64,000 nt of DNA from Xanthostigma xanthostigma (lineage: Eukaryota > Arthropoda > Insecta > Raphidioptera > Raphidiidae). Under the pieces are notes generated by a model. The model saw nothing but the letters and a program-made list of their open reading frames with translations, searched no databases and had not been told where the DNA came from. Where the stretch lies: contig OY754468.1 of the NCBI GenBank assembly GCA_963575645.1, forward strand, positions 52,587,665 through 52,651,664. The letters are read 5' to 3'. Shown here piece after piece: positions 5,201 through 42,100 of the stretch (positions are counted from its first letter, which is position 1; each line of letters opens with the position of its first letter). The position numbers and the translations under genes were made by a program.

Positions 5201-8200
5201 AGCTTGTGCGATATGCCAGAAAAACTTTCAAAACATTCAGACGCCAATAATCTCGAGGGAAGAAACTCGAGTCAGTCATTTTTTTCTAGTGAAGTTATTT
5301 CGGTGAAGTACGATTCGAGTTCAAACCAAGATGAAGAATTAGATTCAGACGAAACAATGTCGGTCGAAAGTCAGTTTTCGGAATGCAGTCGAAATAAAGT
5401 GAAATATTCGACATCGATACCGTCGATCGATGCCGAAAAACGCCCTTTCTCGGCGCCCGTCAATATCCCCCCGATAGTACCGGTCAAAAAACACGTTAAA
5501 AACATCGAACAAGTTCAAAGGAAGACAAATCAGACGATACAGATTTTACGGAAAAAAACTTTTTAAGAAACATAAATTTATATTTTAATTGTTTTTTTCC
5601 CGACAAAATTTTAAAAGTGATTAAATAACTGAAGTAGCTGATTATCAAAGTTCTATTGTACATGTGTATAAAATTGAATTTTTAAATATGTATCTCAAAG
5701 ATACTCGCCTGTTTTACTTTCTTGATTATTATATATTTTATATTTTCCTTTTTTTTATTTCATATGTTTTATATCGTAACGTATTTAAAATTTATAATAA
5801 AAACATTTTCTAAAAAATATTCTTGTTATGTGGCATTTGAAAGCTAGAATTTATTTGTGTGTGCATTTTTTCAGGAAGATCAACTGGCCGAAATAAAGTT
5901 AAAATACGACCAAATCGAAAAGGAAAAAAACAATTTCGAACAGCAATCCAACAATGAATTAGAAACTGTAGGTATTTTGTTTTCTTAGAGAAAAAAAAAA
6001 CCGGTCAGTGCACTTTGTTGTAAGTTATTTTGAAAAAAACACGTTTGAATATAATTTTTTGTTAAAATTTTCATTTCTTTTTGACAGTTGTGGAGGAAGA
6101 GAAATTTATGTTTAATTACAAAGTTGGTACAGAGGAAATCGATAGGTATTTGTTTTTATTCCTTGTCGGTCGATAGCATGATTCGTGTTGCTTTTTTGCA
6201 TGTAGTGCATTTTTGATCGTCATTTTTTTTTACGCATTTATAGGTTATAACAAGTTTTTAATGTAAAATTATATTATAAAACGAGCGATCCGACCAGTCT
6301 TTGCCCGGCTAGATTATCCCCGGCCTGGTTTGTGTGTGATCCCATCTTCTCATCTCCCTTTGTCAGTTGGGAAGTAATAGACAGTGAAAGAATTTTACAA
6401 ATCGGTTCTGTAGTCTCTGATATTAGAAGGAGCTTAATTTAGTTCGGCTTTCGCGCAATTGCAATACGCTTGTATAAATATTTTTCATTACACAATACTG
6501 TTTTATTTTCGAATTTTATAATTTTAGAGATATATTGGATTGGAAAGAAACTCTTTTTAATTTGGTAGTTGCAAGAAGAAAGCTGAACTAAACATTCGTA
6601 AATAGTTTTTTGAGGTAACTTGTTCATTTATTGTAATGAAATTGTGTAAACAGATAATTTTTTGTTTGTTTAACGCATTTAAATGTTTAATTTTTGCTAA
6701 ATTTTGACGATTTCCTCAAATAAATAAGTTCGAAATTGAAATTAATATAAACAAAGTAAAATATTTCACTGTCTAATTTGTGTAACAAAAAAAAAAAAAT
6801 GACAATCTTAACTACATTTTAAAGTATTGTTAATTCTTGGTTATTCTTTTTTCTAGTTAAAAAGAAAAAATGAAAAGTTGGAGTTCAAATTAAAAGAGAT
6901 GCAGCAGGTGCTTCAAAAGTCCGATGAAGAGATAAAATCGATGAAGTTTACGTCATGTTCTGCTGTCGGAGAAAACGAAAAGAAAGTTCAGGATTGTTCG
7001 ACGAAAATCAAGGAATTAAACAATTGTAACGATCTATTGTGCAAAACAATTGAAAAAGCTGAACGCGATTTAAAAGAAGTGAAAATGAAAGCGGAACAAT
7101 ATGTAAGTTTTTGACGTGATAACGTCTTATAAATTGATGAATCACCAATCTTATAAATTGATAAAACACCGGCTGCATGTACGAAAAAGTGTAACGTTCC
7201 TAACGTAACGTTCCGCCTGACCCTGTGCGTGCTTTTCTCGAAAACGGCCCTAACGATTTGGATGAAATTCACTGAAAAGGGATTTTGGGGGGCAAAAAAT
7301 CGTTTTAGCTAGGTCTCATCTCTCGAAAAAATCGTTTTCTTACAAATTTTATCATTATATAAATTAATTTTTTGACGTATGAAAATACTTAAATATTGTA
7401 AGTAGGTTTTGGAATTTTATATAAACAGTGAAACAATTGTTTTATAAATATTATGACAGCTAATCTTTGAGACTTAAAATAAATACGAAAGAAAGAAAGT
7501 TAAAAAAAACAATTATATTATATGGTGAGTAATTTAAATAAATAAAATTAACCTAAATTTGAAGCGAAAGATGCAATATCATAGATTCGAATTATTATAA
7601 TTATTATATAAATTTAGGTTATGTATTACGGAATACGTTATCACGTAAAACTATCGTCCGTAAACCGACTTTACAGACAACCAATTTTTGTGAAATTTAA
7701 ATAAATTTATTTTGAAAAAGGATCATTTTATAATTACCTAATAATTTTAGTTACAAGAACGAAACAAAGCCGAAAAAAGATTGGAATATGTTGAACAGGA
7801 ATTAAGTTCCATCCAAGTGCAATTGTCGGAATCTTTCGATCAAATATCATTTCTTAATGTTCAGGTATTTATAAGGTTTTTTGCTTATAGTATTTGATAT
7901 TGTTTTTCTATGTTTCTTTTGACGTGATAACGTCTTATAATTTGATGAAACACCGGCTGCACGCACGAAAAAGTGTCACGTTCCGCCTGAGCCTGAGCGT
8001 GCAAGCGAGAGCCCGGTATAAGCGATAGAGAGGCACGATCGGCCCAAGCGTCGGCTTGTACGCATTTCTCTCTCTTCTCGCGTGACGTCAGAGAGTTCAT
8101 CAATGTTTCTTTATGACGTTATCACGTAAAACTATCGTCCGTAAACCGACTTTACAGACAACCCATTTTTTTTTTTTTGTAGAATCGTACTTTACAAGAA

Positions 8201-11200
8201 CAGTTGCTCCAAAATTGCGTCTGTGACGAATCTTTGGCTCATTGTAGACTCGAAGAAAAAGAGCCGACTAAAAAGGCCAAAAATGATCACAAACACTTAA
8301 CAGATCTTGAGAAAAAATTACAGAAAAATGTCGAGGAGAAATCTAAACTGGAAAAAATCATTGTCGAGTTGAGAGCAACTATAAATGAAATTACTCAAGA
8401 AAATAGTGTAAGTATATTATAACGGTTATAATATTCTTGTAAATGTAAAGTCATTACGAAACAATTTTTTTTTTTTTTAGGTTTACGATGTGAAAGCATT
8501 TGAAAAAAAAATCTGTGATTTGGAAACTTCACTTTTGTCGAAAGAAGCCGTCGTAAGTATTTCATCGCAATAAGATATCATTGACGCAACAGTTTCTTGA
8601 AAGTTGAATTTGTTTTGAAATTAATTTTGTTTTAATTTAGATTGAAAATTTACAACAAGCTGTGTACATTCATCAGAATACAATTTCAGAACTTGAAAAA
8701 CAGAAGGCCAACGCTCAGGTTGCCGTAAGTAATTAACAGAAATATATTTACAAAATAGAACAGTCTTACGTTTATGATATGTATCTGAATCATAGATATA
8801 TATTAATAGATAGCGGATGCCTATCCTTGAGCATTGTGCGGAATGGTTCCAATTAGAAGTCATATGGAAGCCATTTTGTACGTGGAAAACGCCGTAAAAA
8901 GCGCGCGGGATTCAAAAAGATTAAATATTCTATAATATGAAGTTAATGGAAAAACAATAAAACTCGCAGTAAACAGTGATATTTCACTCCAAAACCTATT
9001 TTGATATTGAAACGTTTCAAAAATTCCAAAACTGAGCATAAATATAATATAAAAGCTTAGAACATTTTACATTGTCAGAGTGGCATCAATGCTTGTCAAC
9101 CTTGATGCCAAATTGACAATGTAAAATGTTCTAAGCTTTTACATTATATTTATGCTCATGCATATGTAATTTTTGAAACGTTTCAGTAAAAAAATAGGTT
9201 TTGGAGCGAAATATCACTGTTTACTGTGAGTTTTGTCGTTTTTCTCAATAAAATCATATTATAAAATAATTAATATTTTTGAATCTCGCGCGCTTTTTAC
9301 GGCGTTTTCCACGTACAAAATGGCTTCTAAAAGGTACAGGAGGCGCTAGTGTATCCGCAATCTATTAAATATATATCTATGATCTGAATGTGTGTTTGGC
9401 TGTTCTGTGCAGAAAGACCATCAACAACAAACGATAAACAGTCTGCAGGACGCATTAATATCGGTCAAACAACAATTGTCCGAGGTACAGAGCCGCAATG
9501 TGAATGAAGTGAGTCACGGGAACGGATGGGCGTGGCCGGTAGGCGGTGGCCTTAGGGCCAGAACGCACTTATCGACCAATAGAAACGTAGTGCACGATGT
9601 GTGATTGTTGTATAGTGCATGTTTTGTTTATTGACAAGTAACAATCGCGCCCTACAAACGTCCTCTAATATTTTAACACTAAGTACTCATTCAACTGTTA
9701 CTGTATAAAAAGAGAAAGTCGTAACTCTAAGTTAACTGAAGTATTATTGAATTCACAGTGTTTATTATTAAAATGTCTTGAAACAATATATTGGGAGAAT
9801 CGTTGGCACGTCTAAAAGCAGATAAAGTCCGATTGAAGTACAAAAGATAGCGTAGATAGAGGAAATTTTGAAAAACCAACCGTGCCAAAACATTAACAAT
9901 TTTTTAAATGTACATACCTATCATTATTTATTAATTTAAAAGGTTTAAAAAAACAATTATAACGCTGTGTTCATATAATTTAATTATTTATTGATCTATT
10001 TATTATTAGCTTTAAGATACGCGTCGAAACTTTGCTTTTTGGAATGTTGGTTTACAAAGCAATTCGCCGGCCCAGATTTTAATATTATAAATTACAATTG
10101 AGGCGTTGGCTTTTGTTTTTTTATTATTCTAGTTCAATTTACTAACTTATTTTAATGTTGTGTTTTGTTTTGCGATTACGCTTTTTAAAGAAATTTGCGA
10201 TACGGTTCAGTATTCTGGGAAATATTTAAGAAAGAATTGAAATTTGTTACTAACTTATATATTTTATAAACATTGTTAAAGTAGATAAAAAATATATTTT
10301 TGTATTAACTGCATTGAAATGTATGATTTTTTAAACAAACGTGTTTCATGAAGATTTTCAAATTCATTATCATACAATAAATTATTATTTATTTAACAAA
10401 AATAATAATTTTAATATGTTTTTTGCAAGAACTTTTTGACGTGATAACGTCTTATAAATTGATGAAACACCGGCTGCACGCACGAAAAAGTGTAACGTTC
10501 CGCCTGACCCTGTGCGTGCAAGCGAGAGCGCAGTATGCTTCGGCCCAAGTTTGACAGCTACTAAAATTTAGGTTATGTATTATGGAATACGTTATCACGT
10601 AAAACTATTGTCCGTAAACCGACTTTACAGACAACCAATTTTTTTTTTAACAATTCATTAATCCGATAAAGAGTTTGCAGCAGACTTTTGCGATTCGCTT
10701 TTGTTTTTAATCGTTTAATGCTTATGGTCGATCTTCATGAAACACTAAAATTCCGGTCATGTTTCACAATTTTTTTTATATTGTGCTACGTTCAAGCTAT
10801 CGTTTATCGCAAGGTAAGTATTTACGAAATGGAATTTATTTCGAGCGAAGATCGGTTTTAAACCGTACTTCATTTTTCAGGTTAAAATTCGAGACGATGC
10901 AATATCAACTTTACGAAACGATTTAACGTGTCTCAACGATCTGTATACGAGCGCTTGCAACGAGGTAAAAAATTTAACGCATTTCTAGTGTAGTTAAGTA
11001 TCACAAATAGTATGGTAGAAAATACATTATTTCTATTAGTTTCGGTATTCTAAGAATTTTTGAAGTGAAAACTTCTTTAGCGGAGTTGTACACTTTTTTT
11101 GTAATGGGTAAAAAATGTTAAACTCGCGTCAGGCGTCAGGACACGTGACCTGATCTAAGATGACAACTTTTATTTATACAACGTTAGACATCTAGCGTTG

Positions 11201-14200
11201 AAATATCGTACATAAAAATGCAATCTATGATACAAACCATTTTATTTACAAGTGTTGCCAATAAATAAACAATGCTTCTAAATGCAAAAAATTAAGACGT
11301 TAATATTCAAGTTTTCACTTCTGCCGGCACTCCCGGAGTGCAACCCGTGTATTTTTTAAATTAACTAAGCGTAATTTAATAGACCTACTAGTTTTATTTT
11401 AAATTTCGCAGCGCTATGTTTTGTTACTTTTGCCGGAAAATATTTTTTACGTTCTGACTACTAGGACACATGCGAGTTAGTAAACTTTATGCTAAATTGC
11501 AGCTTGTTATCTTTATTTAGTCCAGAGAATTTCGACTGCGAGGTACGAAACCCAAAAGAAACCGAAATGACTGATTTTTAAAATATTTTTCAGATGATAA
11601 TGATAAGCCGAACGGCCGAAAAAGTGCGAGACTCGAATTTGGATCTGAGAAGTGCAAATTTTTATTTGCAACAGGACAATTCTATACTCCAGTTACAGCT
11701 GCATCACAAGCAACTTTCTCTTTCCTCGTTCGAGGTACGAGGAACGAGTGAAATAGTTTTGTGTTGTAGATTCCTCTTTTATTTGTCAGTTTTGTTATTG
11801 TTGATATGTCTTTCAAAACCAAAATAAAGACAGTATTTAATTATCTGGACATTTACACTATTTTTAAGGAGGTTGAGCCGTTTTACGAAGATAATGAAAA
11901 AAATCTGAAATAAAGTTTTTTTAATAGATTTTTTAATGATAAAATTTTCTGTAAAAAATCCAAAATCATTAGGAGATTTATAAAGTTAAAAATTAAAAAA
12001 AAAACTTTTACATGTAGTCTTATGGAAAATATGTCAACCTAGCATGCAAACGGTACATTTTAATTTTTTGCAAATAACCAAATAATGTCAGCAGTTCCAA
12101 AAACTAACTATGTAAAGCATCGATGTCTTAGGCATATTTTAATATTTTTTCCAATTTAATTAGGAGACTTTTAATCAATAAAAAAAAAATCATTAAACCT
12201 TAGCACTTTTCGATTATGGACTTTTATTTTTGACAGTTTTAACAATTTTAACTGAATTTTCAACTTTTTAATGATTTAATTTTAATTTTTATTACTTCTA
12301 ATTTCTTTTTTTAATTATTTACTGTAAAAAAATATGTAAAATACAGATATTTACATAAATTTATTTTTTTTAACCTAACTTTACACAAAAAAATTATAAG
12401 TTAGAAATAATTAATTAATATTAAAAAAAAATATTTATTTATGCTTTTATGGCAATAATATTATTGGTATCATCGACTTATAACCTTTTGTAAAAATTTA
12501 TTATGGAAAAGTTCCCATTTAGAATTCAACTTACTTTTGAATGGGACTGTAACGGATCAACCTCCTTAATTGTCGAACGTCTATAATCTACAATAGCTAT
12601 ACTGCAATATTTTTAGAAAATACCTCGTTCGAGACTATATTTAGATATTAAACAGATTTTTGATAAGTCAGCACGTCCTAAAGCGGGGGGCTGCCGAAGA
12701 AAAAAACGCCGATTATCATTGGGGAAGTTCTTTTCCATCGTTTCTTATTATTCCAAATCAAATATGCTGAGAAATCAAACTTATAAGGCTGAAAATAGTA
12801 GGTAATTAGTAAGGTGCAGGAGGGAAACGGCTAGAAACGCTCTTTTGTTACATCGTAGCCTTATCGATTTATATTTGGTTTTGAAGGAAATATCGCTCGA
12901 ACCATGTATTCTCATTATAATAAATGAAATAATTTTTGTGTTGATTTTTTCTATGAATTTTTAACAAACGGTAATTTAATATCCGTTACGAATTCTTATT
13001 TTCAATTTTTTTCAGGGCGGCTGCAAAGCTTTGCAGAAAGAACTTCAAACTAGAGATACGATATTATCCAGTTTAAAACAAACAATCGATAGGGTAAAGT
13101 CGGACGCATGAAACAATTTTCGTTTGAATTCGCACATCTTTTGTTTCTACTGTTGAAACATACGATTATTAATTGAAATTGTTTTTTCAGTGCGAGTGTT
13201 TAACACTGAAGAGCGAGCTGTTGCAAAAGAACAATATAATAGACGAAATGAAAAGTCGACTCTTTTGCAGCAACGAGTTGTGCGCTAACGCGTGGGATCA
13301 AATTAAAAATTATCAAGAGTGGCAGGTGTGTGGCTTCGCTATTTTTTTTAACCTAAAAACAATCCAAAATCGAAGCCAAAAACAAATCTAGTAATTGATT
13401 CGGAAATAAAGGAACTAGTTTCTAAAATATGTTTTTAGTTATTGGCGTAACTAGTAGTCTAAGTCATTCATCGCGCTGACAGGTCATGACTTAGCCTACA
13501 AGTTGCGCCCATAATTTTATTCAACAATTGCGCGTTATTCATGTTTTATTTATTGTTACTAATGAGATGTTGTAAATAACTATTTATTTCTTTATAAAAA
13601 AAAACTGTCAATACTAACAGCACCAAACAGCACGATTCAATGTTTTGGTTTGAGGTTAGCCGGTTATGAATAAACTCCATGTCGAAAACATTCGGCCTCT
13701 CAATTTTAGCCTCAATGGGTAACAACGGAGTTGTTGTTACCGACTATTTCGTTACGACTCAGAAAATAGTTACGTTTATTTTCATTACTCCACAATGGCC
13801 GAGCTAGTAGGAATCTTCATTGAGTTATGACAAGTAATTGTCACCAGTCGGTAAATGGCTATTTAGGGTTCGGTTTTTAGGCATGATAAAACATGAATAA
13901 CGCGCATGAGTTGAATAAACGTTATTTGTTCTTCCTTTTTAGTGTGACTATGAAAATCTTATTGAAGATCTAACGGTGGAACTATCGTCTGCGAAAGGAA
14001 ATCTTGAATATTTGCAGTCATTTTTGGTAACATTTAAAATTTTGTATTAATTAATTATTAATAACTGTTGAATGTCAACAATTAGCTACGTATTTTTCAT
14101 AGGAAAGCGATGACGAATTTTGTCTCGCAAGATCGTTGACCGTTTCGAATTTATATCGGCACGTCGAAATGCTCGAACACGAACTGGTACAAGTGCAAGA

Positions 14201-17200
14201 GCAGATTATAAACGAGTCCAAGTTTAATTCAGTTCAATTCGGGCGTATTCAGGAGATGGAACAAATGCTTGACGAAAAACAAATGGAGGTCTGTGCTATG
14301 AATGAATTTTTGTACGGTTCCTGCCGCTAGAGGCGCTCATAATGTAATTGGCACAGTGCTGCCATCTCTTATTGTAGTGTGCATAATTTCATATACCTAC
14401 GTTTTTCGGTTTTCGGAAGTAATCTTTTTAAATAATTAACTAGTGTGACCTGTGCGAATTATTCGCACTAAATAAGTATAATAATTATCACTTTACAAAA
14501 TTATTTTTTAAATATGATTACAGGTATTCAATTCGTTTCTAATTTTGCACACTGCTTATAACGTTCTTCTTTTTGTTGTATTACAATATGAAGCTCAGAT
14601 GACAGATCGAAGAAATATTTTACTAAAATTGTCATATAGAGGCGCAAGTAGCAAAAGCGCTGAGCTAAGCCGTCAGATGGCATCATGCAGCATTGCTGTG
14701 ACGTTGTTCAGCGTTGCTCGCTGTTTCAAAATTACAGCCATCAGATGGCAGTATGCAGTATTGTGTCTGTTATATTACAATATGAAGGTCAGATGACAGA
14801 TCGAAGTGTTGACGTAGTTTCAAAATTAAAGCCGTCAGACGGCAGACGTTGTTCAGCGTTGCTGTATTTTAATTAATTTACAAAAACAAAAGCAATAATA
14901 CATTTTTTAGTTGTCGATGTCAGTAGAGCAAGCAGTTATCTGTAAAATGATATATAATTTATGTGGAGAAATTGTGAGTTTTTTTCTAAAAAGGGAGGCA
15001 AACATCTTAAACCTTAGCGTATTAATATATATGATTTTGTTACGAGAATGAAATATTATTTATTTGAATATAATTTAATAGATAAACAAACTGGAAGATG
15101 TTCTAATGACAACCAGAAACGATTTAACTTTGGCTTTGAACGAAAACAGAAAAATGAACCAATCAATTGAAGAATTGAATAATGAATTGTCTGAACAAGA
15201 CAATTGCATCGATTGTCCTAACAAGAACAATAGCGGGCGACTACGTGAAAAAATATTGTCGCTGAAAAACTTACTGCAGAATAAGTCTGAAGAATTGGCC
15301 AATTTGCAAGTGACCTATCAGATGCAAGTCAACGAAAACTGTATTTTGAAAAGTGAAATGGAAAATGAGAAAACGTCTCATACGGAGGAGTCGAATAAAC
15401 TAAAAACAGTTGTAAGTAGTTTTCCTTTTTTGAAGTGAAAACTTCTTTAGCGGCGTTGAACACTTTTTTTGTAATGAGTAAAAAATGTTAAACTCGCGTC
15501 AGGGTCACGTGTCCTGATTGAAAGTGCGTAAGATGAAAACTTTTTATACAACGTTAGACATCTAGCGTTGAAATATCGTACATAAAAATGCAATCTATGA
15601 TACAAACCATTTTGATCGAAAATTCGTCAGACGTTAATATTCAAGTTTTCACTTCTGCCGGCACTCCCGGAGTGCAAAGGAGTTTTTTTTTTTTAAGGCG
15701 CTCTCAAAAAAATGTTTCTCTCTTGTATTTTTTTATCTCAGATAACAAAAATAGAGAAAAAGCTTTGTGAAACCGAAATGCGATATTTCAAGTGCAATCA
15801 AGATTTAATAAAACAACAAAAGAAGGTCGCCGATTTGGCTCAACACGAAGCGGCGTTAGAGAAATTGCTGACCTTGAAAGAGACAGATATCAATCAGAAA
15901 GAGGAGCAAACAATGAAAATGGAAAACGCTCTAATTGCGTTGGACGACAATTTGTTGAACTATAAAACAAAACTTTTGGATCAAGAACGCGAACTGGAGA
16001 ATTTAAAAGCAAACATTTCAGCGAAAAGCCAACTGATTTCAGCTTCAGTGAAGGAAAGTACGAAATTGAACGATGAAATTACAAATTTGAAACAAACGAT
16101 CGATCTGCTTCAAGCTGAGGTAAAATTGAATGTTGCGATTAGTGATGTGCCGGATATCCGTATCCGCGGATATCCGAGGGAGAAGAAAGATCCGTATCCG
16201 TTAGTTTTTTGGCGGATCTTTTACCTTATTAATTTTCAATTCATAGATGAAATTTTATATATATAGGTGATTAGGTAATAATGAAAAACTGTTAAATTCC
16301 ATTCAGATTATTTTTTATTTTTTAAAATCGTATTTGGCACCTTTATATTTCAAACATTTATCGTAGTGAGTACCATACCAATAGTACATAACTCAAAGGT
16401 ACTAAAAAACTATCTTTATAATGAGATATTGCACATCGATCTTTGGAAAGAGACAATCTGTTATGAGAGTTAACTCTTAAAGAGGTCAATAACTTTTTCC
16501 CATAACAGATAGTCTCTTTCCGAAGGTCGATGTGCAATATTTATCGCCGCGTACTCTAAGAAAGTTGAGATCCGTATCCGCGGATCTTGAAACCAAATAT
16601 CCGTATTCAGATCCGTATCCGCGGATATGCATTTTTAACGATCCGGCACATCACTAGTTGCGATATATTTTCTTTACCGTTCCAACTACACAAATGGTAC
16701 TGATTTAGGTTAAAATTTCGCTACTTTTCAGAACGATAAATTGAAGAACGAATTATCGACGTCAAATAAAAGAACAGTTCGAGTCGATGAATATCAAATG
16801 GAGTTGGTGCAAAATTCGAATATGTTCCTCGAGGACAGAAACATTTGTATCGTAGAAGAATTGAACGCCCTGCGTAAAGAATACGACGATCTTCAGGCCG
16901 ACTATAGACTGAAAGAAGACGAGGTGATTAATCTGCAAATGGACTTAACAGACATGACGACTTGTCGGGAGGAGATTTGTTCTCAGTCGAAAGCAGTCGT
17001 CAACAATGCCAAAAAATGGTTACAGGAACAGAAAGCGATCAATCAACAATTGATGACCAACATTCAAGAGAAAAATGATGCAATTAAGAAATTGCAGTTT
17101 GAAAATCAGTACGTTCATATCCATTAAAATAATCTTTTATGGCACGCCGTTTTACTATTTAATAGTATAAAATATTTTTCCAAAAATTATAAAAATATGT

Positions 17201-20513: not shown

Positions 20514-22268
20514 ATGAGCTCAAAATTATTTCAATCATATAAATTATTAAAAAATCTAGGCTCTACCGTATTGAAGAGCAGAAATGTCAATTTATTGCAA
20601 AATAATTTTAGAAAAAAACAATTTAGTAGCAATGACACTGGCGATAAAAAATTAACAAATGAAGAGGACAAAAAGCTAGATCAAACCTTAGGTGCTGTCG
20701 CCTCGAAATATCAGATCTTTCGGGATCAGGATGCAGAACTTATCTTAGACATCGAAGAAGAACGCCGACTGGAATATCCAGAAGGACTGGGCGAATTGTG
20801 GATCGAGAAGAAAGATGAATTCGAAGGAATAAATCTTGAACGTAAATATTAAATAAAATAAAATTCGCTGTTTCAAACATTTATAGGGGCATTCGAGTCA
20901 CAACTTACGTTTCGATTTACCCATAAATATCGACTAGTAATCGTTGAATTAGTGTGATAATGGAACGAGGGGACTCCGATCTTTATACTAGCAGGATAAT
21001 CGGATATTTGTTAGCTTAACGGGTTAGGAAGGTTCCGAGGATTTAAAAATCGGCCAGTTACAAATTTGTTGCCAGTACATACTGATTTATTTTTGACGTG
21101 ATAACGTCTTATAAATTGATGAATCACCAATCTTATAAATTGATAAAACACCGGCTGCATGCACGAAAAAGTGTAACGTTCCTAAATCCGTAACGCGTAA
21201 CGTTCCTAACGCGTAACGTTCCGCCTGACCCTGTGCGTGCTTTTTGCTAATTTCTCGCTCAATTTAAATCAGATCGGTTTGAAACCAGTCTTAAACGAAA
21301 GAGGAGAACATTTTACATAGATTTCGTATAACAGAATTTGCCTAAACAGTTTTTTTATACAAATTTATATAGAAAAATAGCTGTATAAATGCAATGTTGT
21401 CTAATGCATGGCGCGACGCGGTCGGTCGTCTTTGTTTGCCGTACATGGAAATTAGAAAATAACGTATGTCTTGTCTTAACATGAAAACGGCTGCATTTCT
21501 AATGTTTAATTCAATTTTTTGACATTAGTATTTTGTGAAATGCAACGGCTTCTAAGTTAAGTATTGGAATAACTAATTATTATTAGAACATAATACTTTG
21601 ACAGTTGCAAACGTCACTTTTGACATTTCTTATCATTCCGACACCAAGGATAAGCGGATTGAAACCAAATTTTGGGAGGTTTAGGTTATGTATTACGGAA
21701 TACGTTATCACGTAAAACTATCATCCGTAAACCGACTTTACAGACAACCAATTTTTTTGTAGACGGCGTTACCGGAGTATTTGACATAGAAGATTTGGTT
21801 GTGGTGTTAAAACGCGAACAAGCCAAGAATATATTCGTCGCAAAAGTGCCTCCGGAATTAAAATACGTCGATTATATAGTCGTAGTTAACGGAAGGTCCG
21901 GTAAACATATGTTAGCTTTAGCTGAATTTGTGCGAAAAACGTTCAAGAAGAAACGTTACGAAGACGAAATTATTCCGAAAATTGAAGGAAAGAAATCGAA
22001 AGATTGGATTGCATTAGATTTAGGTGAGGGTTAATTTAATAAAACCCAGTTGAAATGTGTGAAGATTTGAAATTACTTCATTTTTTTGTTTGCAGGAAAT
22101 ATCGCTTTACATATATTTTCAATCGAAGCGAGAGAACAATACGACTTGGAAAGTTTGTGGTCTGTCGGTTCTGAATATGACACTGAATACAACAAACCTG
22201 TCGATTCCTTGACTGAATTGATCGAGAAACATTCGATATACTTAAGAGATCTCAAACCCGCTGATTAA
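20514..22268 (+). CDS. MALSU1: Mitochondrial ribosome silencing factor (MALSU1/RsfS)
   Basis: Three exons, 20514-20841, 21763-22023 and 22096-22268 (TAA), join in phase 1 both times to give 253 residues. Residues 1-45 are basic and Ser/Asn-rich (MSSKLFQSYKLLKNLGSTV) and look like a mitochondrial presequence. From about residue 110 the protein has the RsfS/Iojap fold signature: FDIEDLVVVL, a beta segment (YVDYIVVVNGRSGKHM), then DWIALDLGNIALHIF and REQYDLESLW near the C-terminus. The family binds uL14 on the large ribosomal subunit and blocks premature joining of the small subunit; here that would act in mitochondria during large-subunit assembly. Its length is close to the roughly 234 residues of the human protein. 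Intron 1 contains a HIN-1 transposon whose end lies only a T-run away from the acceptor of exon 2. Confidence 0.93.
21091..21758 (+). mobile_element. HIN-1 element ending at the MALSU1 acceptor
   Basis: It starts ttttgacgtgataacgtc at 21091 and ends acagacaaccaattttttt, directly followed by gtag and the MALSU1 exon at 21763. The interior matches the long copy at 49-1030. Confidence 0.82.
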
Positions 22269-23368: not shown

Positions 23369-26300
23369 ATGTCTAAAAAAGATTCAATTTTGGACAAAAG
23401 TCCCAGTGCAATATTGGGATGGCCAATTACAAAAGACCAAAAAGTAATCTTTTGTTATTTGGTGCCATCTATTGTCAGTTGTTTAATTTATATTGTCCAT
23501 ATAGCCAGCGATATTGTTTTGACTTACGAACATTATCTAGAAGAGAATTATTATTGGGCGGATTTGACGCTGGCTTTCATTTATTTACCGGCGTTTGCTT
23601 GTTTTGTACTGACAATTACGACGCCTCACCTATGGCCGCAGGAGGACGGTTGCTGCAACTTTATAAATATTAAGTGGTTTTTCGTTCGAGTTGGACAACA
23701 CGTATTGTTTCCCGTTTGGGTAATGTACAGGTAAGTAAGGGGGGTAATCCTTTCCTATAGATCGAGAAAAAAAAAATTGGTTGTCTGTAAAGTCGGTTTA
23801 CGGACGATAGTTTTACGTGATAACGTATTCCGCTCGAATATCATATTTATAATAATACATAACCTAAATTTTAGTAGCTGTCAAACTATATTTTTACCGA
23901 CTCTATCGCTTATACTGCGCTCTCGCTTGCACGCACAGGGTCAGGCGGAACGCTACACTTTTTCGTGCATGCAGCCGGTGTTTCATCAATTTATAAGACG
24001 TTATCACGTCAAAAATATTAAACTTTGGTTAAACTAAACAGTCGTACCGGCAATTCATCCGTTGCCGTTTTAAAATTATCCCATAATATATTTTACACTT
24101 CTCTGCCACCTGCGTTTTTTATATTTTTGAAGCTAATAAAACAATTGCAAATGAGACGGTACGGTTTTTGTTCATATAAAATTTCCTTATAGATATGCGG
24201 AGCGAATATTCTGGGCGATCGAGGCAGTCCGTTTGGACGACGATGAAAGGGAGGAGGCGTTGTGGCATTTAAACAAGCCTCGTGCAGTGGAATTGTACCG
24301 TTTCTTACAAGCTTACATGCAGGCTGCTCCGCAGCTCTTGCTGCAAATACACATTCTGATGCGGCAGGACGATTTTTATCGTTCCGATAGAGGTTTGCAG
24401 TTTTTTGTTTTATTAAAAATTTCACAGCAACATAAACCGGAGATCAGATGAAAAGCGCATTTTTTTGAAGTGAAAACTTCTTTAGCGGAGTTGTACACTT
24501 TTTTTATAATGGGTAAAAAATGTTAAACTCGCGTCAGGCGTCAGGATACGTGACCATGATCGAAAATTCGTAAGACGACAACTTTTATTTATACAACGTT
24601 AGACATCTAGCGTTGAAATATCGTACATAAAAATGCAATCTATGATACAAACCATTTTATTTACAAGTGTTGCCAATAATTTAAGATAATATATAAGAAG
24701 GTATTCCAATCCTGCAATGCATCATGGGAAATGTGTCAAGCGGTGGCGCCACCACGAGTGTGTCAGATACACTAGCCAGTAACTAAAGTATTTTCATCCT
24801 AACTCTTGAAATAATAATAAATATTGTTTATTAATTAATTAGCGCCTAAAAAATTTTTTAGATTTTTTAGGCGCTAATTAATTAATAAACAATATTTATT
24901 ATTATTTCAAGAGTTAGGATGAAAATACTTTAGTTACTGGCTAGTGACACATTTCCCATGATGCATTGCAGGATTGGATGGCTAGTGTATCTGACACACT
25001 CGTGGTAGCGCCACCGCTTGACACATTTCCCATGATGCATTGCAGGATTGGAATACCTTCTTATATATTATCTTACAATAATTATAAAAAGTTAGACATC
25101 TAGCGTTGAAATATCGTACATAAAAATGCAATCTATGATACAAACCATTTTATTTTTTGTAATGGGTAAAAAATGTTAAACTCGTGCCAGGCCTGACACG
25201 TCAGGAAGTGTTGCCAATTAAACAATGCTTCTAAATGCAAAAAATTAAGACGTTAATATTCAAGTTTTCACTTCTGCCGACACTCCCCGAGTGCAACCCG
25301 TCTTTTTTTTTAATTCCCACTCGATATTTTCAGTGAATATGCAAGCTTTGAGTATAATAATGTCGATGGTCAAAATGGCTTTAACAACTTCTGCCTATCA
25401 ACATTACGAAAGCCAGAAATTGATAGGGATAAGATATCCTTGGAGCAGAGTTCGTCCGTACATGCCTTTTCCAATGCGAACGGCCGAATCGGTCGGTAAG
25501 TAGAACAACAATAAACAAAAGTTCGCAACGAAGTATTACTTTTAAAATAATCGGTATACAGTGTGGTCACTTAAGTGTGCAACATATGGGAAAATTTTTA
25601 ATTAAATGCACAACCAAAATACAAATATTGCCAAAAGTTGGTGCATGTCCGATAATCATTTTAGGTGCTCTTAGAATTGTTGAAACTCAAACAGCATACA
25701 GGGTGGGTCAAAAAATATAAAAATTGTACAAGAGTAAAGTGCCCTTATTTAAAAAAATTCAGCGAAATGTTATAAGAAAAAGTTGTTTAGAATTAAAAGT
25801 TATGCCCAAATAACAAAACATGGCCTTCTAAGAAAAAAAAATTTTTTTTTTTTTTGAAAAACCAAAATTATAATTTTTTTGAAAATTTTTTTTATACTTA
25901 CCTGAAACACACTAATAAATTATTCAAAATCAAATCAATTTCGCATAGCTTTGTTCAAATTCAGGCATATTTGTAAAATTAACTTAGATTTTTAATTTTT
26001 TATGGAATCACAAACTTTGTTTGTTGCAACGATATTAAACATTCTGTATGCTGTTTGAGTTTCAACAATTCTAAGAGCACCTAAAATGATTATCGGACAT
26101 GCACCAACTTTTGGCAAAATTTGTATTTTGGTTGTGCAAATTTTCCCATATGTTGCACACTTAAGTGACCGCACTGTATATGTTTGAAAAGCTACTTCAG
26201 CTAAGTATCATTTCAGTTCAAATAAATCTAAGATGACCATTTTTTTAACCGACCTTAGCTTTTCAACTGGAAGAAATACAATATTTTGCTTTTGCCTATT

Positions 26301-33100: not shown

Positions 33101-36100
33101 ATGAAATTTTATATATGTAGGTGATTAGGTAATAATGAAAAACTATTACATTCCATTCAGATTATTTTTTATTTCTTAAAATCGTATTTGGCACCTTTAT
33201 ATTGCAAAAATTTATCGTAGTGAGTACCATACCAATGGTACATAACTCAAAGGTACTAATAAAAAACTATCTTTTTAATGAGATACTGCACATCGATCTT
33301 TGGAAAGAGACAATCTGTTATGAGAGTTAACTCTTAAAGAAGTCAATAACTTTTTCCCATAACAGATAGTCTCTTTCCAAAGGTCGATGTGCAATATTTA
33401 CCGCCGCGTACTCTAAGAAAGTTAAGATCCGTATCCGCGGATCTTGAAACCAAATATCCGTATTCAGATCCGTATCCGCGGATATACATTTTTAACGATC
33501 CGGCACATCACTACAGTCAAGAGTGTTAAAAATTGTAATTGAAAAATTACAAATCATTCTTTTTTGCACAGATCGATTTTTTGTTTTACTTTTTTTTAAC
33601 GATCAGAGTGGCAGGGCCGCAGGGTTTATATAACGACAAGACAATCAACAAAATTGATTTTTAATATTCTTACAGCCATTGGAAACTTCTGTTGCGCTTT
33701 AACGGAATACATTGCGAACATCGATAAAGCTCCAGACCCGACTTTAGATAAAGAAACATTTTCAATTGAAATGACAGTCGCTTACGATATAATCGTTACT
33801 TGGTTACATTCACGTGAACCGAAAGTCGTCGAAAGTATTTTACAGGCGATCGGTGCCCTGGTTCTTATATTGCCCGTCGACAAAATCAAGGAGCAAGTAC
33901 CGAAGTTGGTACCCAATTTATTATCGATTTACAAGAAGTTCAACGAACCCTTCGTGATCACAAAATGCTTGTGCTCGGTAATCGTTGCTATAACTGAGAA
34001 AAATAAACAGTTACTGGAGCCCTTGCTCGACAACCTGTTGAATTCACTTTTAGATCACGTGTCTGTCTCTCCGGATTATATCAGTCATACCGACACGTTA
34101 AAAAATAATTCGGAAGTTTTACGCTGTTACGATAATCTGGGTACATATTTTCCCGATAAAATTATCGATTATCTATCGCAACAATTGAAAAACAATAACG
34201 AAACCGTTAGAATAAAAGCACTTACGATCGTTTCTCATATGATCAATTCCTCCGATCAGGAAATAAAAAAACGTTTGACGAAATTGGTTGCGATTTTGAA
34301 GACGTTATTAAACGATCCTTCGATCAAAGTTAAAAAAGCCATGTTGAAGATTATTGTTTTACTCGCGTATCATAACTTTTTAGAAGGGGACGATATAAAT
34401 CTGTTTTTGAATTACATAATAAAATTGTGCAGTAACAATTTTAATCACGAAATGAACCACAAAACCGACGCTACGAAAGAAAATGTCGAAAACGTCGAGT
34501 TCAAAAGATTGTGTGATAATTCGTTATATTTATTGACGACGTCTGTACCGCAACTCGAAGAAAAATTGTGGCCGTTATTCTTACAAAATTTCTTGAATAG
34601 AGAATTTTCAGAAGCTACATACAGCGTGACCAGATGTTTGTCGCACCTCGCCAGTAAAGTTAAAGAGCAGCAGACGTCGGAAAAAACCATTTCCGAATCG
34701 CCCGATAGTGCCTCGGTTTTTGTTAGATGTTTAGCTTTGTTATCGTCGCCGTTATTGTCATATCGAGGAACGTACGTACTTAATTTTTTGAAGAATTACA
34801 TTTTATTCGTCGACGAAAGACTTACAAAACTCTGGGAAACGAACATAGATGAAATGATTAAATATTTAGAAGAAAACTGCGACGATTTCGATCAAATCCA
34901 ATGGGAAAATCTGGTCATGAACTTTTTATCCACGACCGTAGAAGAAATCAGCGAACCGAAATGGAAAGAAGTAGTAACAAAAGAATTAGAACTAAGTATC
35001 AATAGTTATACGGAATTTTGCGATGAAAAAAACTTCTTATTTATATGTTTAGCGACAATAATTAATCATATACACGACAGGGCTACCATCAATGCCAAAA
35101 TAGATCTGATTCTGAGCCACGCCAAGTCGCACAGCGACATCGAAAATCAGATCTGCTCGAGAGCCATCGGAATTTGTGCCGATCAGAATCTGGATATTAT
35201 TTTACCTAAACTGAAACTGTTGTGGAGTAACGAAGCTGCTCGAAAACATACCAAATTTTTCGGATTGATGAAAGATTCGAAACACGACAATACTGAGCGC
35301 ATAAAACTGACATTACTTTATTGCTATTGGGAAATAGCGTCGAACAAAAAAGATAATACGGTGGCAGCACTCATCGATAACGACATTTTGAAATGGACAG
35401 TCGAACAATTGAAATCCACAAAAGACTTTCACGTCCGTAAATCGGCACTGATGACGATAACGAGTATCGTAGACGTCATGCATACGAACAAAGCGAATTT
35501 AAGTTATACGGTCGAAGATCGCGACGCGATATTGTTTACCGTGCTAGATTTACTGCACGACAACATTCAATTGTATCCGGTGGTATTTCAAGCGGCAACT
35601 TCACTGATCAAATTACCGCCGATATTAAAAATTGAACAGAAAACGCAAATTTTCAAAATCTGTTTTGAAAATGTTTCGTCGAAAAATAAATTAAATCATG
35701 CCGAAATAAACGATAACTTAATATTACTCATACAAGAAATCTTGCTGCAATCGGTGTCGCCGGTCGTTTTGGAAGAAATCTTCTGTTTGCTGCAAATGTG
35801 GTTGAGTCAGGCGGATCAAGAGAAACGATATGCGGCGCTCAAAGTTTTAAAATCGGTCCTGGAATGCTATTTGGTGAACGTTTCGTACGATTCAGGCAGC
35901 GTATTCGAATTGACCGGTTTTATAATAGGCTGTTTAATACCGAAATGTTCCGATCCGAACATGGAAGCGAGAAGGGAGGCCGTCGATTGTATCGAGTTGG
36001 TTTCGGGCATAGCGTCGAAATACGAAGGCCATGTCGATAATTCTTCGGAAGGAAAAGTTTTCGCGGAAATCAAAAACAACGTGCAAACGAATAACCAGCA

Positions 36101-39100
36101 GTCGTTGATGGACAGTTTAACGGAACTGGCTAAAGTAATAAGCGACAGAATGCCGCATTATCAACTGGTTAATTTTATTGAGAATTTATTAACCGGATTG
36201 CTGGACACAGAACCGAACTGCTCGAACGGAGTCGCGAATGTTTTGAACGTATTTTTCAAAATTAAAGGCGGCGATTTATTCCATCATGTGGACGACGTTA
36301 TGAGCAAAATTATATTCAATTTGGAAAGGATTTCCGATCACAATACGAAGATCACGACGTTGAATTCGATTGTAAATTTAGCATCGCACCATCCCAAAGC
36401 TGTTATTACTTCATTACTTATGCAACCGCTCGACAATGAATCGTAAGTTAAAACAGTTTTTGTTTTGTTTTTTTGAAGTGAAAACTTCTTTAGCGGCGTT
36501 GTACACTTTTTTTGTAATGGGTAAAAAATGTTAATCTCGCGTCAGAAAAAGTAAGAACTGGGTGAGACTCTCTAAGTGATAGTAATTGCCAGATACTTTT
36601 TATACAACGTTAGACATCTAGCGTTGAAATATCGTACATAAAAATGCAATCTATGATACAAACCATTTTATTTATACAACGTTAGACATCTAGCGTTGAA
36701 ATATCGTACATAAAAATGCAATCTATGATACAAACCATTTTATTTATACAACGTTAGACATCTAGCGTTGAAATATCGTACATAAAAATGCAATCTATGA
36801 TACAAACCATTTTATTTATACAACGTTAGACATCTAGCGTTGAAATATCGTACATAAAAATGCAATCTATGATACAAACCATTTTATTTATACAACGTTA
36901 GACATCTAGCGTTGAAATATCGTACATAAAAATGCAATCTATGATACAAACCATTTTATTTATACAACGTTAGACATCTAGCGTTGAAATATCGTACATA
37001 AAAATGCAATCTATGATACAAACCATTTTATTTTTTATACGTTAGACATCTAGCGTTGAAATATCGTACATAAAAATGCAATCTATGATACAAACCGTTT
37101 TATTTACAAGTGTTGCCAATAAATAAACAATGCTTCTAAATGCAAAAAATTAAGACGTTAACATTCAAGTTTTCACTTCTGCCGGCACTCTCGGAGTGCA
37201 ACCCGTCTTTTTTTTTATGAGTTAGTTCAGGAATGTATCAGCATCGGTACTTTTTTTTTTAATTTGCAGTTGTATTTCCGAATGCTGGAGGGTTATCAGC
37301 GAAGACAAATTACTGGCCGCGGCTGCCTTGAATCATTTCAGTCGATTGTTCGGAACCACTAATTTGTACGACGAGCAGCCTGGTAGAGAATTATTACGAA
37401 TTGCAACCCATCAACCGCTTGCCGTAAGTTTACCCGGTTAAATAATTTTTTGTACAGTTAAGGAGGTTGAGCCGTTTTACGAAGATAATGAAAAAATCTG
37501 TAATAAAGTTTTTTAATAGATTTTTTTATGACAAAATTATCTGTAAAAAATCCAAAATCATTAGGAGATTTATAAAGTTAAAAATTAACAAAAACTTTTA
37601 CTTGTAGTCTTATGGAAAATATGTCAACCTAGCATGCAAACGGTACATTTTAATTTTTTGCAAATAACCAAATAATGTCAGCAGTTCCGAAAACTAACTA
37701 TGTGAAGCATCGATGTCTTACGCATATTTTAATATTTTTTACAATTTAATTACGAGACTTTTATTCAATAAAAAAATTATTAAACCTTAGCACTTTTATT
37801 CTTGACAATTTTAACTGAATTTTCAACTTTTTAATGATATAATTTTAATTTTTATTACTTCTAATTTCTTTTTTTAATTATTTATTTACTGCATAAAATA
37901 TGTAAAATACAGATATTTATATAATTTTTTTTTCTAACCTTACTTTGTACAAAAAATTCAAAAGTTAGTCCATTAATTAAAATACTGAAATAATGAATTA
38001 ATATTAAAAAAAATTATTTATTTATGCCTTTATGACAATAATTTATTAGTATCATCGACTTATAACCTTTTGTAAAAATTTATTATGGAAAAGTTGCTAC
38101 TTAGAATTCGACTTACTTTTGATTGGGACTGTAACGCATCAACCTCCTTAAGCTATTAAAGTGCAGTGCAGCCAGTCGACAAGATTATCCGAGAATCTAG
38201 TACCTACCGATCCATATTTTCAATTTAATATTTTTAATAATTCCGAGAATCCGCTCGATAAAAATATTACACGCGTTTTCATCGATGTCGACGTCTTTCA
38301 GGCGATAAGCGCATTGAGCGATATGTTCCGGTGGGCTCACATGGAAGAGATAGCCGTTTCGCAGTTTGCCGAAATATTCACGATACTGTTTGTGTCGGTG
38401 GCTTGTTACATAGGAGTATCGGCTCCCGTTCACATTCCGCAACAGTCGAAAGACAAGGACAATAAGTTCAGTATAATTCCAAACCGTAACGCTTATAAAT
38501 TAAACCCTGCAAAAATAGCTTTGGACTCGTTCAAGTCGTTCTTACTCTGCGCCAAATGCGAAAGAGTCGCCGAAGCTCTTTTATTGTGCAGTCGAATCGA
38601 ACGAGAAGAAAGCGTTTTGGCGTACATCGAAGTGATGCCGAAAATCACAGAAAACGTATGCATTGCCCGGCCGAACATGGTTCCGAAAATCATAACAAAT
38701 TTATCGCATTATCGTACGAGTACGTACGAAATACAGAGAATTGCCGTCGCTGCTTTTTATGCCGAGGTTTGTCCGTCTGTTCAGTCCCGTACGGATCTGA
38801 GTATGTATCTAAATGCATCGATATTTCCGTTTTAGTTCATTCATCAGAAAGTTAAGACCGATACTGTTTTGCTCGAAAGCGTGATAACTAGTTTATTGGA
38901 AGGTCAAACGGACTCGTGTGCTACGGTTAGACAGTTGAGTCTGCGAGGTCTCGGCTACATTCCGTCACAAAGTGAGGTCATAGTGTCTCGGCATTGTTCC
39001 GCTGCGTTGAATGCTTTTATGAACGGACTCGATGATCACAAAATGAGGTAGCGACAATTGAAATTTTTATCGTGGTCCCGTTCTTTTTATGCAGTATGGA

Positions 39101-42100
39101 AATTTTAATGCTTGTTATTCGCAGTAACGATATGACAAAGAATACCATTCCGTTAGAAGCAATGATCGGTTTATCGAACATATTACATGCGATCGACGAG
39201 GATCAACTAAATTCGATACAAGTAAATGTCGGAATGCGAATAAAACAGTTCTTCGAAAACGACGATGCTGTTTTGCGTGCGACTTCTATAAAATTGTTCG
39301 GCGATTTGGTCAATTCTTGCAAGAAAACGTGCAGACAAAACACGCTCAAGGAACAGATCAACGGAAATTTGATCTGTCTTTTGTTACATTTGAGCGATAC
39401 GGACGCCGATGTCGTAAAGGTATTTTTTTTTAATATAGTAGGAAAGGAACTGGAGTATTTACTGACTATCTATACTAATATACAGGGTGTCCCATTAAGA
39501 ATGTGACATAGAACAACCGCAGATTCTCCAATTCAAAATAAAACGATTAAGCGAAATATGCTTAGATAAAATGTTACTCGTTTCCGAAATACGGGGTGTT
39601 GAAGTTGAAAACTGAAAAATTATTAATGTCCATAATTTTTTTAATACACCGTATAATTTTACTCAAATCGGCACACTTGTTAAATATCATAAAATGCACC
39701 TAACAATAAAAAAATTAGTTCAGTACGCTCTACCAGTGGCGTACGGCAGGAGTAAGTAATGCTTGTACCCCTTCTAAATGTTACGCCGCTGTCTAAATTT
39801 TAATTTTGACTATAATTTTAATTTTTTTGATATTTTCTAAGTCAATAATGTACACTTGTTAGTTTGTTGTAAAGTCATTGGTTTTCGAGATATTCGCAGT
39901 TTTTTTAAGACAAAATTGTAAAAGTGAATATTATTAATAATAATACAAATAAAAAGTACATGTCTATCTATCTTTAACTGCGAATATCTCGAAAACCAAT
40001 GACTTTACAACAAACTAACAAGTGTACATTATTGACTTAGAAAATATCAAAAAAATTAAAATTATAGTCAAAATTAAAATTTAGACAGCGGCGTAACATT
40101 TAGAAGGGGTACAAGCATTACTTACTCCTGCCGTACGCCACTGGTAGAGCGTACTGAACTAATTTTTTTATTGTTAGGTGCATTTTATGATATTTAACAA
40201 GTGTGCCGATTTGAGTAAAATTATACGGTGTATTAAAAAAATTATGGACATTAATAATTTTTCAGTTTTCAACTTCAACACCCCGTATTTCGGAAACGAG
40301 TAACATTTTATCTAAGCATATTTCGCTTAATCGTTTTATTTTGAATTGGAGAATCTGCGGTTGTTCTATGTCCCATTCTTAATGGGACACCCTGTATAAA
40401 GCTGAAGAGTTTGTTTGTTTGTTTGTTTGAACGCGCTAATCTCAGGAGCTACTGGTTCAAATTGAAAAAATTTTTTTTTGTTGGATAGCCCATTTATCGA
40501 GGAAGGCTATAGGCTATATAAAATCAGGGTACGGCCATTAGGAGCGGAGCATTAATGAAAAATGTTGCAAAATGTATCTCAAAAATAAGCTTCTATTCAG
40601 GTGAAATGCACTAACTAAATATACTCATATTAGCGTTGTCAGAATACAACGCCGACTAGCTCAATCAGTAGAGCACACGACTGTCAATATCAGAGTCGTG
40701 GGTTCGAGCCCTACGTTGGGCGAATACATTTTTATTTTTTTTTTTATTTTCTACATTGCTTTCTTCTAAGGCTTTTATTTAAATTTATTTTAATATTTTT
40801 AATTTTATTTAATTAATTAAAAAAAGTATAAATACTGCTTTTTATCGACAAAAACTTTTGAACGGTAACTCCGATCATCATGAAATTTGGACACAACATT
40901 AATCTCGGCAAACTAAGATGAATGTGTGTACTCATGTTCCTCCTTTCCCCATTCGTTCTTTTACATCCGGGTGAAACCGGACGGGACCGCTAGTCTCAAA
41001 TAAAAGAACAAACTCGCATTAATCGTTTCTGTTTGCAGGCCTGTAAGTATTCTTTACGGGTAGTCGGCCCTTTGTTAGATGCCAATAAAGTGAACGCAAT
41101 GATCCAGGATCACCTAATCGACGATGCAAATTTACAGTTTTCTGATTTTATGATGGCTCTCGTTAAAGTGATGGTAAGAAAAATATTTAAATACAGAAGC
41201 TCAGTCATAGATATATATATATTTAATAGATTGCGGATACACTAGCACCTCCTGTACCTCTTAGAATCCATCTTGCACGTGGAAAACGCCGTAAAAAGCG
41301 CGCGAGATTCAAAAATATTAATTATTTTATAATATGATTTTATTGAGAAAAACGACAAAACTCACAGTAAACAGTGATATTTCGCTCCAAAGCCTATTTT
41401 CGTTTCAAAAATTACAAAATTGAGCATAAATATAATGTAAAAGCTTAGAACATTTTACATTGTCAATTTGGCATCAAGGTTGACAAGCATTGATGCCACT
41501 CTGACAATGTAAAATGTTCAAAGCTTTTATAATTATATTTATGCTCAGTTTTGTAATTTTTGAAACGTTTCAATATAAAAATAGGTTTTAGAGCGAAATA
41601 TCACTGTTTACTGCGAGTTTTATTGTTTTTCCATTAACATCATATTATAAAATATTTAATCCTTTTGAAATCCGCGCGCTTTTTACGGCGTTTTCCACGT
41701 ACAAAATGGCTTCCGTACGGCTTCTAATTGGAACCATTCCGCACAATGCTCAAGGATAGGCATCCGCTATCTATTAATATATATCTATGGGCTCGGTAGA
41801 CAATAAACGAGTAATTTTCACGTAAAAAAATATAACAAAACAGGATCAACGCCATATCATTATTCAAGACAGACGCAACTCGGAATGCAATAACGCTTAA
41901 TATTTTAACATATGTAAATATATTTTCAGGGCGAGGAGCTGGCGGAACTGATTCCATTCTTGTTAATGAGCGCGCTGGCGTACATTAAAAGCTACAGTCC
42001 TGAAATTCGGGGGAATACAGCCGCAATGATCGGTCTGTTGTACAGTAACATGCCGAAAGGGACTGAAAATCAAAAATCTTTAGATTCCGTGTGCCATCGA

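Follow-up and report, generated by a model that had tools for sequence, protein, structure and literature searches.

The terminus of a HINE-like transposon as the probable 3′ splice-site region of a MALSU1 exon in Xanthostigma xanthostigma

The window analysed here, i.e. the whole stretch of 64,000 nucleotides from contig OY754468.1 of Xanthostigma xanthostigma (assembly GCA_963575645.1, forward strand), carries a three-exon MALSU1 gene whose first intron holds a transposable element (Table 1). Joining the three exons yielded a 762-nt open frame encoding 253 aa, which bears out the claim of an earlier note, made from the sequence alone, that the MALSU1 frame is kept across the junction behind the element. 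The joined protein matched the Pfam family PF02410 (RsfS, 7.8e-25) and, among solved-structure chains, 5ool_u (4.1e-25), a chain named mitochondrial assembly of ribosomal large subunit protein 1, over query residues 115–226. Because the exon 1/exon 2 junction falls at residue 110, this homology backs exons 2 and 3; exon 1 is drawn from its open frame and donor, the match starting beyond it. The span of the match would also suit a wrong exon 1 model, in which either another exon lies upstream or exon 2 is the first exon, so that the element end is not the acceptor of this intron; we regard this as highly unlikely, in view of a 109-codon open frame with an ATG, a GTAAAT donor and a matching phase, and, unless exon 2 is itself the first, its acceptor would be required whichever exon lies upstream. 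A protein search of the whole 623-Mb genome, with four candidates scored, returned three matches at E ≤ 0.001, all of them exons inside the window and free of stops, i.e. a single MALSU1 locus; therefore the insertion sits in a conserved gene of which no other copy was found. Elsewhere in the window, an inverted repeat at 39479–40398 has 423-nt arms that are 100% complementary and 74 nt apart.

Table 1. Coordinates (window numbering) of the features at MALSU1 and at the second gene
Feature	Position	Strand	Remarks
MALSU1 exon 1	20514..20841	+	coding, ATG to donor C/GTAAAT
MALSU1 intron 1	20842..21762	+	921 nt, 253 nt of them outside the element
Left host flank CTGATTTAT	21082..21090	+	probable displaced original branch-point/pyrimidine region, judged from empty-site comparison
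HINE-like (non-autonomous Helentron-type) element	21091..21758	+	668 nt; from copy comparison
5′ subterminal palindromic repeat GACGTGATAACGTC	21095..21108	+	terminus anatomy
3′ subterminal repeat ACGTTATCACGT	21702..21713	+	45 nt before element end
3′ hairpin GTAAA-CCGAC-TTTAC	21727..21741	+	3′ arm holds candidate branch point, A at 21740
Element T7 tail	21752..21758	+	putative polypyrimidine tract before acceptor
Host GTAG acceptor	21759..21762	+	element ends four bases before exon 2
MALSU1 exon 2	21763..22023	+	open frame, homology
MALSU1 exon 3	22096..22268	+	open frame, homology
Left flank TATTTGATATTGTTTTTCTATGTTTC of second insertion	7891..7916	+	TTGAT and T-rich tract left behind
Second HINE copy	7917..8178	+	ends in T13, within intron 7865–8182 of second gene
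Coding exon after second element	8183..8407	+	acceptor formed by element tail and GTAG; open, phase 0 both sides

The element was called HIN-1 in the earlier note, a name with no other source. Its boundaries were set by BLAST within the window and by 28 full-length genomic copies, and they coincide with the span first proposed. Ten copies of the element 3′-end were found in the window, the MALSU1 one included, with an identical terminus and unrelated flanks. Genome-wide, 40 of 428 candidate copies were scored, all of them near full length, and the 28 of these taken with their flanks aligned from element position 1 or 2 to 666–668 at 97.6–100% identity; the 23-base terminus string occurred 20,002 times in 623 Mb (10,051 + 9,951), versus 0 for the reversed control. 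GTAG as element sequence was ruled out by the right flanks, which differ among other copies.

The terminal anatomy fits the published description of HINEs, i.e. non-autonomous Helentrons, as given in the available part of PMC4067079: a palindromic subTIR of 12–15 bp 2–4 nt from the 5′ terminus, a 3′ subTIR 38–60 nt from the 3′ terminus, a 5–10 bp palindrome 8–35 nt from the 3′ terminus, a T-rich target with no target-site duplication, and no coding capacity. Here, GACGTGATAACGTC begins at element position 5, four bases in; ACGTTATCACGT lies 45 nt from 21758 and 38 nt from the last non-T base; and 17 nt separate the end of the 5-bp GTAAA/TTTAC stem from 21758. The T tails were 5–14 long at 60 element ends, no target-site duplication was seen by eye when flanks of copies within this genome were compared, and no stop-to-stop frame of at least 70 aa lies wholly inside 21091–21758, in keeping with the lack of coding capacity. 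The window also contains a second Helentron-like family (11057–11362, 15427–15696, 24462–25315, 36470–37220 and 48217–48578) with GAAGTGAAAACTTC ends, a 3′ hairpin such as GCCGGCACTCCCGGAGTGC and a T tail; its copy at 36470–37220 contains a tandem array of 72-nt period, and an AG lies within 2 nt after the T run at only one of its five 3′-ends, at 15676 (AAGG).

Intron 1 ends in ...CGTAAACCGACTTTACAGACAACCAATTTTTTTGTAG/ACGGCG, where the element end GACTTTACAGACAACCAA and its T7 are followed by GTAG and then by exon 2 at 21763, an arrangement that the earlier note had described correctly save for one A omitted before the T run. The nearest host intron sequence on the far side of the element is at 21090, about 670 nt away and with at least 11 AGs in between, so that, as argued there too, the branch point and the polypyrimidine tract would have to lie in the transposon. 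Its candidate for the branch point, TTTAC (21737–21741), does fit yUnAy and is the only such motif in the last 60 nt of the intron; the adenosine at 21740 lies 23 nt before exon 2, and the motif forms the 3′ arm of the terminal hairpin of the element. Branch points lie about 20–50 nt from the acceptor, according to the available text of PMC7349775. A branch-point-like motif and a T tract are thus both found inside the element, with the AG at the exon. The TTTAC match is weak evidence in itself, because yUnAy is loose and occurred at least once in the last 60 nt of six of the eight other, non-element acceptors (in two there was none). RNA folding predicted pairing of the candidate branch-point region with the acceptor at a z of −1.56, which is not significant, 10 of 200 shuffles folding equally well.

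Fifteen AG positions were counted in 21400–21802, six of which keep the frame open, giving exon starts at 21679 and 21685 in the element, at 21763, and at three places within the exon. Use of 21679 or 21685, which are both in frame and stop-free, would add element-coded residues to MALSU1; the chance of this appears slim, as these two starts are preceded by ATTGAAACCAAATTTTGGGAG and ACCAAATTTTGGGAGGTTTAG, poor tracts lacking a long run of pyrimidines, whereas 21763 has T7. A further possible competitor, the CAG at 21741–21743, 19 nt upstream of the acceptor, shifts the frame into stops. If exons 1 and 2 are joined in frame, the simplest reading is splicing to 21763 from a branch point inside the element.

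The host sequence left of the element reads CATACTGATTTAT. In the reconstructed empty site, i.e. the flank plus 0–4 shared T plus GTAG, CTGAT comes to stand 10–14 nt from the exon, a somewhat short distance for a branch point. The left flank looks like a displaced host branch-point region, and we infer that the element probably entered a T tract between the host branch point and the AG, in agreement with the T-rich target described for HINEs (PMC4067079, available part).

The layout recurs in a second gene upstream of MALSU1, with phase-0 exons at 6857–7102, 7751–7864, 8183–8407, 8481–8552 and 8641–8724, in which a second HINE copy ends just before the exon at 8183. As no Pfam family scored above the cut-off for this gene, its exons are supported by open frames and phase. 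The branch point and tract that intron 7865–8182 had before the insertion seem to survive in the left flank TATTTGATATTGTTTTTCTATGTTTC; the candidate adenosine matching that at 21740 lies 29 nt before 8183. This second case, the likely original acceptor region in the left flank at MALSU1 and the nature of TTTAC as a hairpin arm were all absent from the earlier note. The recurrence of the 31 nt left of the second element (7886–7916) at 1196–1226 raised the idea that the element had created the intron; the 26-nt core of that flank was found at only two places in the window and at none of 78 genomic loci examined, and the idea is rejected for now because the core looks like host intron, leaving an intron of 56 nt. 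The copies at 1196–1484 and 7886–8176 have 291 nt in common at 98%, the 31 nt of left flank included, and another element 5′-end, at 1138–1195, precedes the former; a transposition or conversion event may have taken host intron sequence of the second gene with it. A third element copy stands directly after the donor GTAAGT (7103–7108) of the preceding intron (exon ...CAATAT/GTAAGT/TTTTGACG, 7103–7112), i.e. element copies abut donor and acceptor in successive introns of this gene. Besides this gene of many short exons (6857–8724), the window has an uninterrupted 948-aa frame with MROH2B-like HEAT repeats at 33600–36446 (PF23210, 5.1e-107).

The strength of the MALSU1 acceptor and the age of the insertion bear on whether the intron is removed properly. 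Pyrimidine content in the 20 nt before the acceptor was 0.55, the lowest of ten acceptors compared, versus 0.60–0.85 for the eight non-element acceptors and 0.80 for the second element-borne one (exon 8183). The MALSU1 copy differs from another genomic copy by 2 mismatches in 668 bases, so the insertion is young and may be recent and even polymorphic; the suggestion in the earlier note that the element is tolerated is weakened by this, above all as regards long-term tolerance. The insertion could instead impair splicing, in that exon 2 is skipped, the intron is retained or the CAG at 21741–21743 is used, the assembly then containing a recent and possibly polymorphic hypomorphic allele. The near identity to another copy, the weak pyrimidine content and a competing CAG that leads to a frameshift and stops would all suit such an allele; we nevertheless consider it unlikely, as every exon of this conserved single-copy gene is intact and another exon of the window repeats the arrangement with its frame open.

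How often an AG adjoins such an element end was determined at several scales. In the window, an AG lies 0–2 nt after a T run of at least 5 in 68 of 410 cases on the plus strand and 63 of 451 on the minus strand; the corresponding counts (AG at +0 to +2) were 2 of 10 for the element ends in the window and 2 of 27, including locus L073, for those of other full-length copies, and an AG lay within 2 nt of 10 of 60 element ends sampled in listing order from contig C1. No enrichment of AG after element ends over T runs was seen among these 10 window, 27 full-length and 60 sampled ends. An AG beside the element alone is thus not unusual, since AG commonly follows T runs; the unusual part is the real coding exon after the AG. 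Among the 10 AG-adjacent ends of the 60, the two longest frames (85 and 76 aa) fell below the Pfam cut-off. When the genome was searched for termini with a GTAG no more than 10 nt away, 416 matches were obtained, those listed all lying on contigs C1 and C2, and in the flanks of 50 of the 416 a T run (one other base allowed) stood directly before GTAG in 29. Thirteen of these 29 (L014, L028, L033, L039–L042, L045, L046, L049, L051, L052 and L055) share one downstream flank, GTAGGTTCGGGAATCTTTTTAACATAACA, which points to copies of one nested insertion, their ends probably having been copied as part of another repeat; a Pfam scan of four frames from the remaining 16 GTAG-adjacent ends gave nothing above the cut-off.

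Our preferred explanation, to which we assign a probability of about 0.7, is that a HINE-type element lies in the T tract of MALSU1 intron 1 and that its terminus supplies the branch point and the tract, with the host AG kept. A non-autonomous rolling-circle element would have inserted downstream of the host branch point, for which the CTGAT of the left flank is the probable candidate, and upstream of the host GTAG, so that some 680 nt and numerous AGs now separate the old branch point from the exon. Most likely the intron continues to be removed, the element's own terminus serving in place of the lost signals: branching would take place at 21740, in the TTTAC hairpin arm 23 nt before the exon, the T tail after TTTAC would act as the U2AF tract, and the exon would be joined at the host AG. 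An AG only a few bases past a branch point gets skipped, and the CAG at 21741–21743 would be passed over as too close, 3 nt past adenosine 21740. On the sequence evidence, this is likely a real, if modest, example of a transposon supplying the region of a 3′ splice site, by a plausible and specific mechanism.

The closest parallels share only parts of this arrangement. In canine PMEL, the merle SINE is reverse-oriented, a longer tail puts the branch point farther away, and with long tails a cryptic acceptor is used instead (PMC7349775, in its available text); as at MALSU1, a transposon sits at an intron–exon boundary in the acceptor region, and, as is proposed here, its T tract takes the part of the polypyrimidine tract and the original splice can persist, whereas here a HINE seemingly supplies the branch point as well as the tract, with the host AG in place. 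The T tract likewise serves in antisense Alu exonization (same source), but there the new exons consist of Alu sequence, and MALSU1 keeps a conserved host exon and the host AG. HINE/DINE-1 elements share the palindromic subterminal repeats, the 3′ hairpin, the T-rich target and the variable number of terminal T, whereas splice-site use is not mentioned in the available part of the account in PMC4067079. Introners are also mobile and interact with splice signals, some recruiting target splice sites, but they create introns, and the word Helitron is absent from the text of PMC9860276; here, 253 nt of the MALSU1 intron and 56 nt of that in the second gene lie outside the element, and both introns probably existed before insertion. 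The maize Helitron paper PMC4528327 deals, in its available part, with splicing of captured genes rather than element ends. Among the matches listed in one open-access library (titles and abstract openings), no paper was found in which the end of a Helentron or HINE serves a host exon as its branch point or tract.

A broader and rather doubtful extension is that a Helentron-type terminus is a portable branch point plus tract, which would repeatedly take over existing acceptors without frame change because the element enters T-rich tracts, and which may affect many genes, given 20,002 exact ends. If such termini do stand in for branch point and tract, a rolling-circle transposon that is common in the genome could insert where an intron is under the strongest constraint and still be harmless, and the survival of T-tract insertions would be explained; recent natural branch-point replacements would then be at hand for testing the minimal sequence requirement of a metazoan acceptor. 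Should splicing be impaired, the locus would be a naturally occurring hypomorph of a gene for mitochondrial ribosome assembly.
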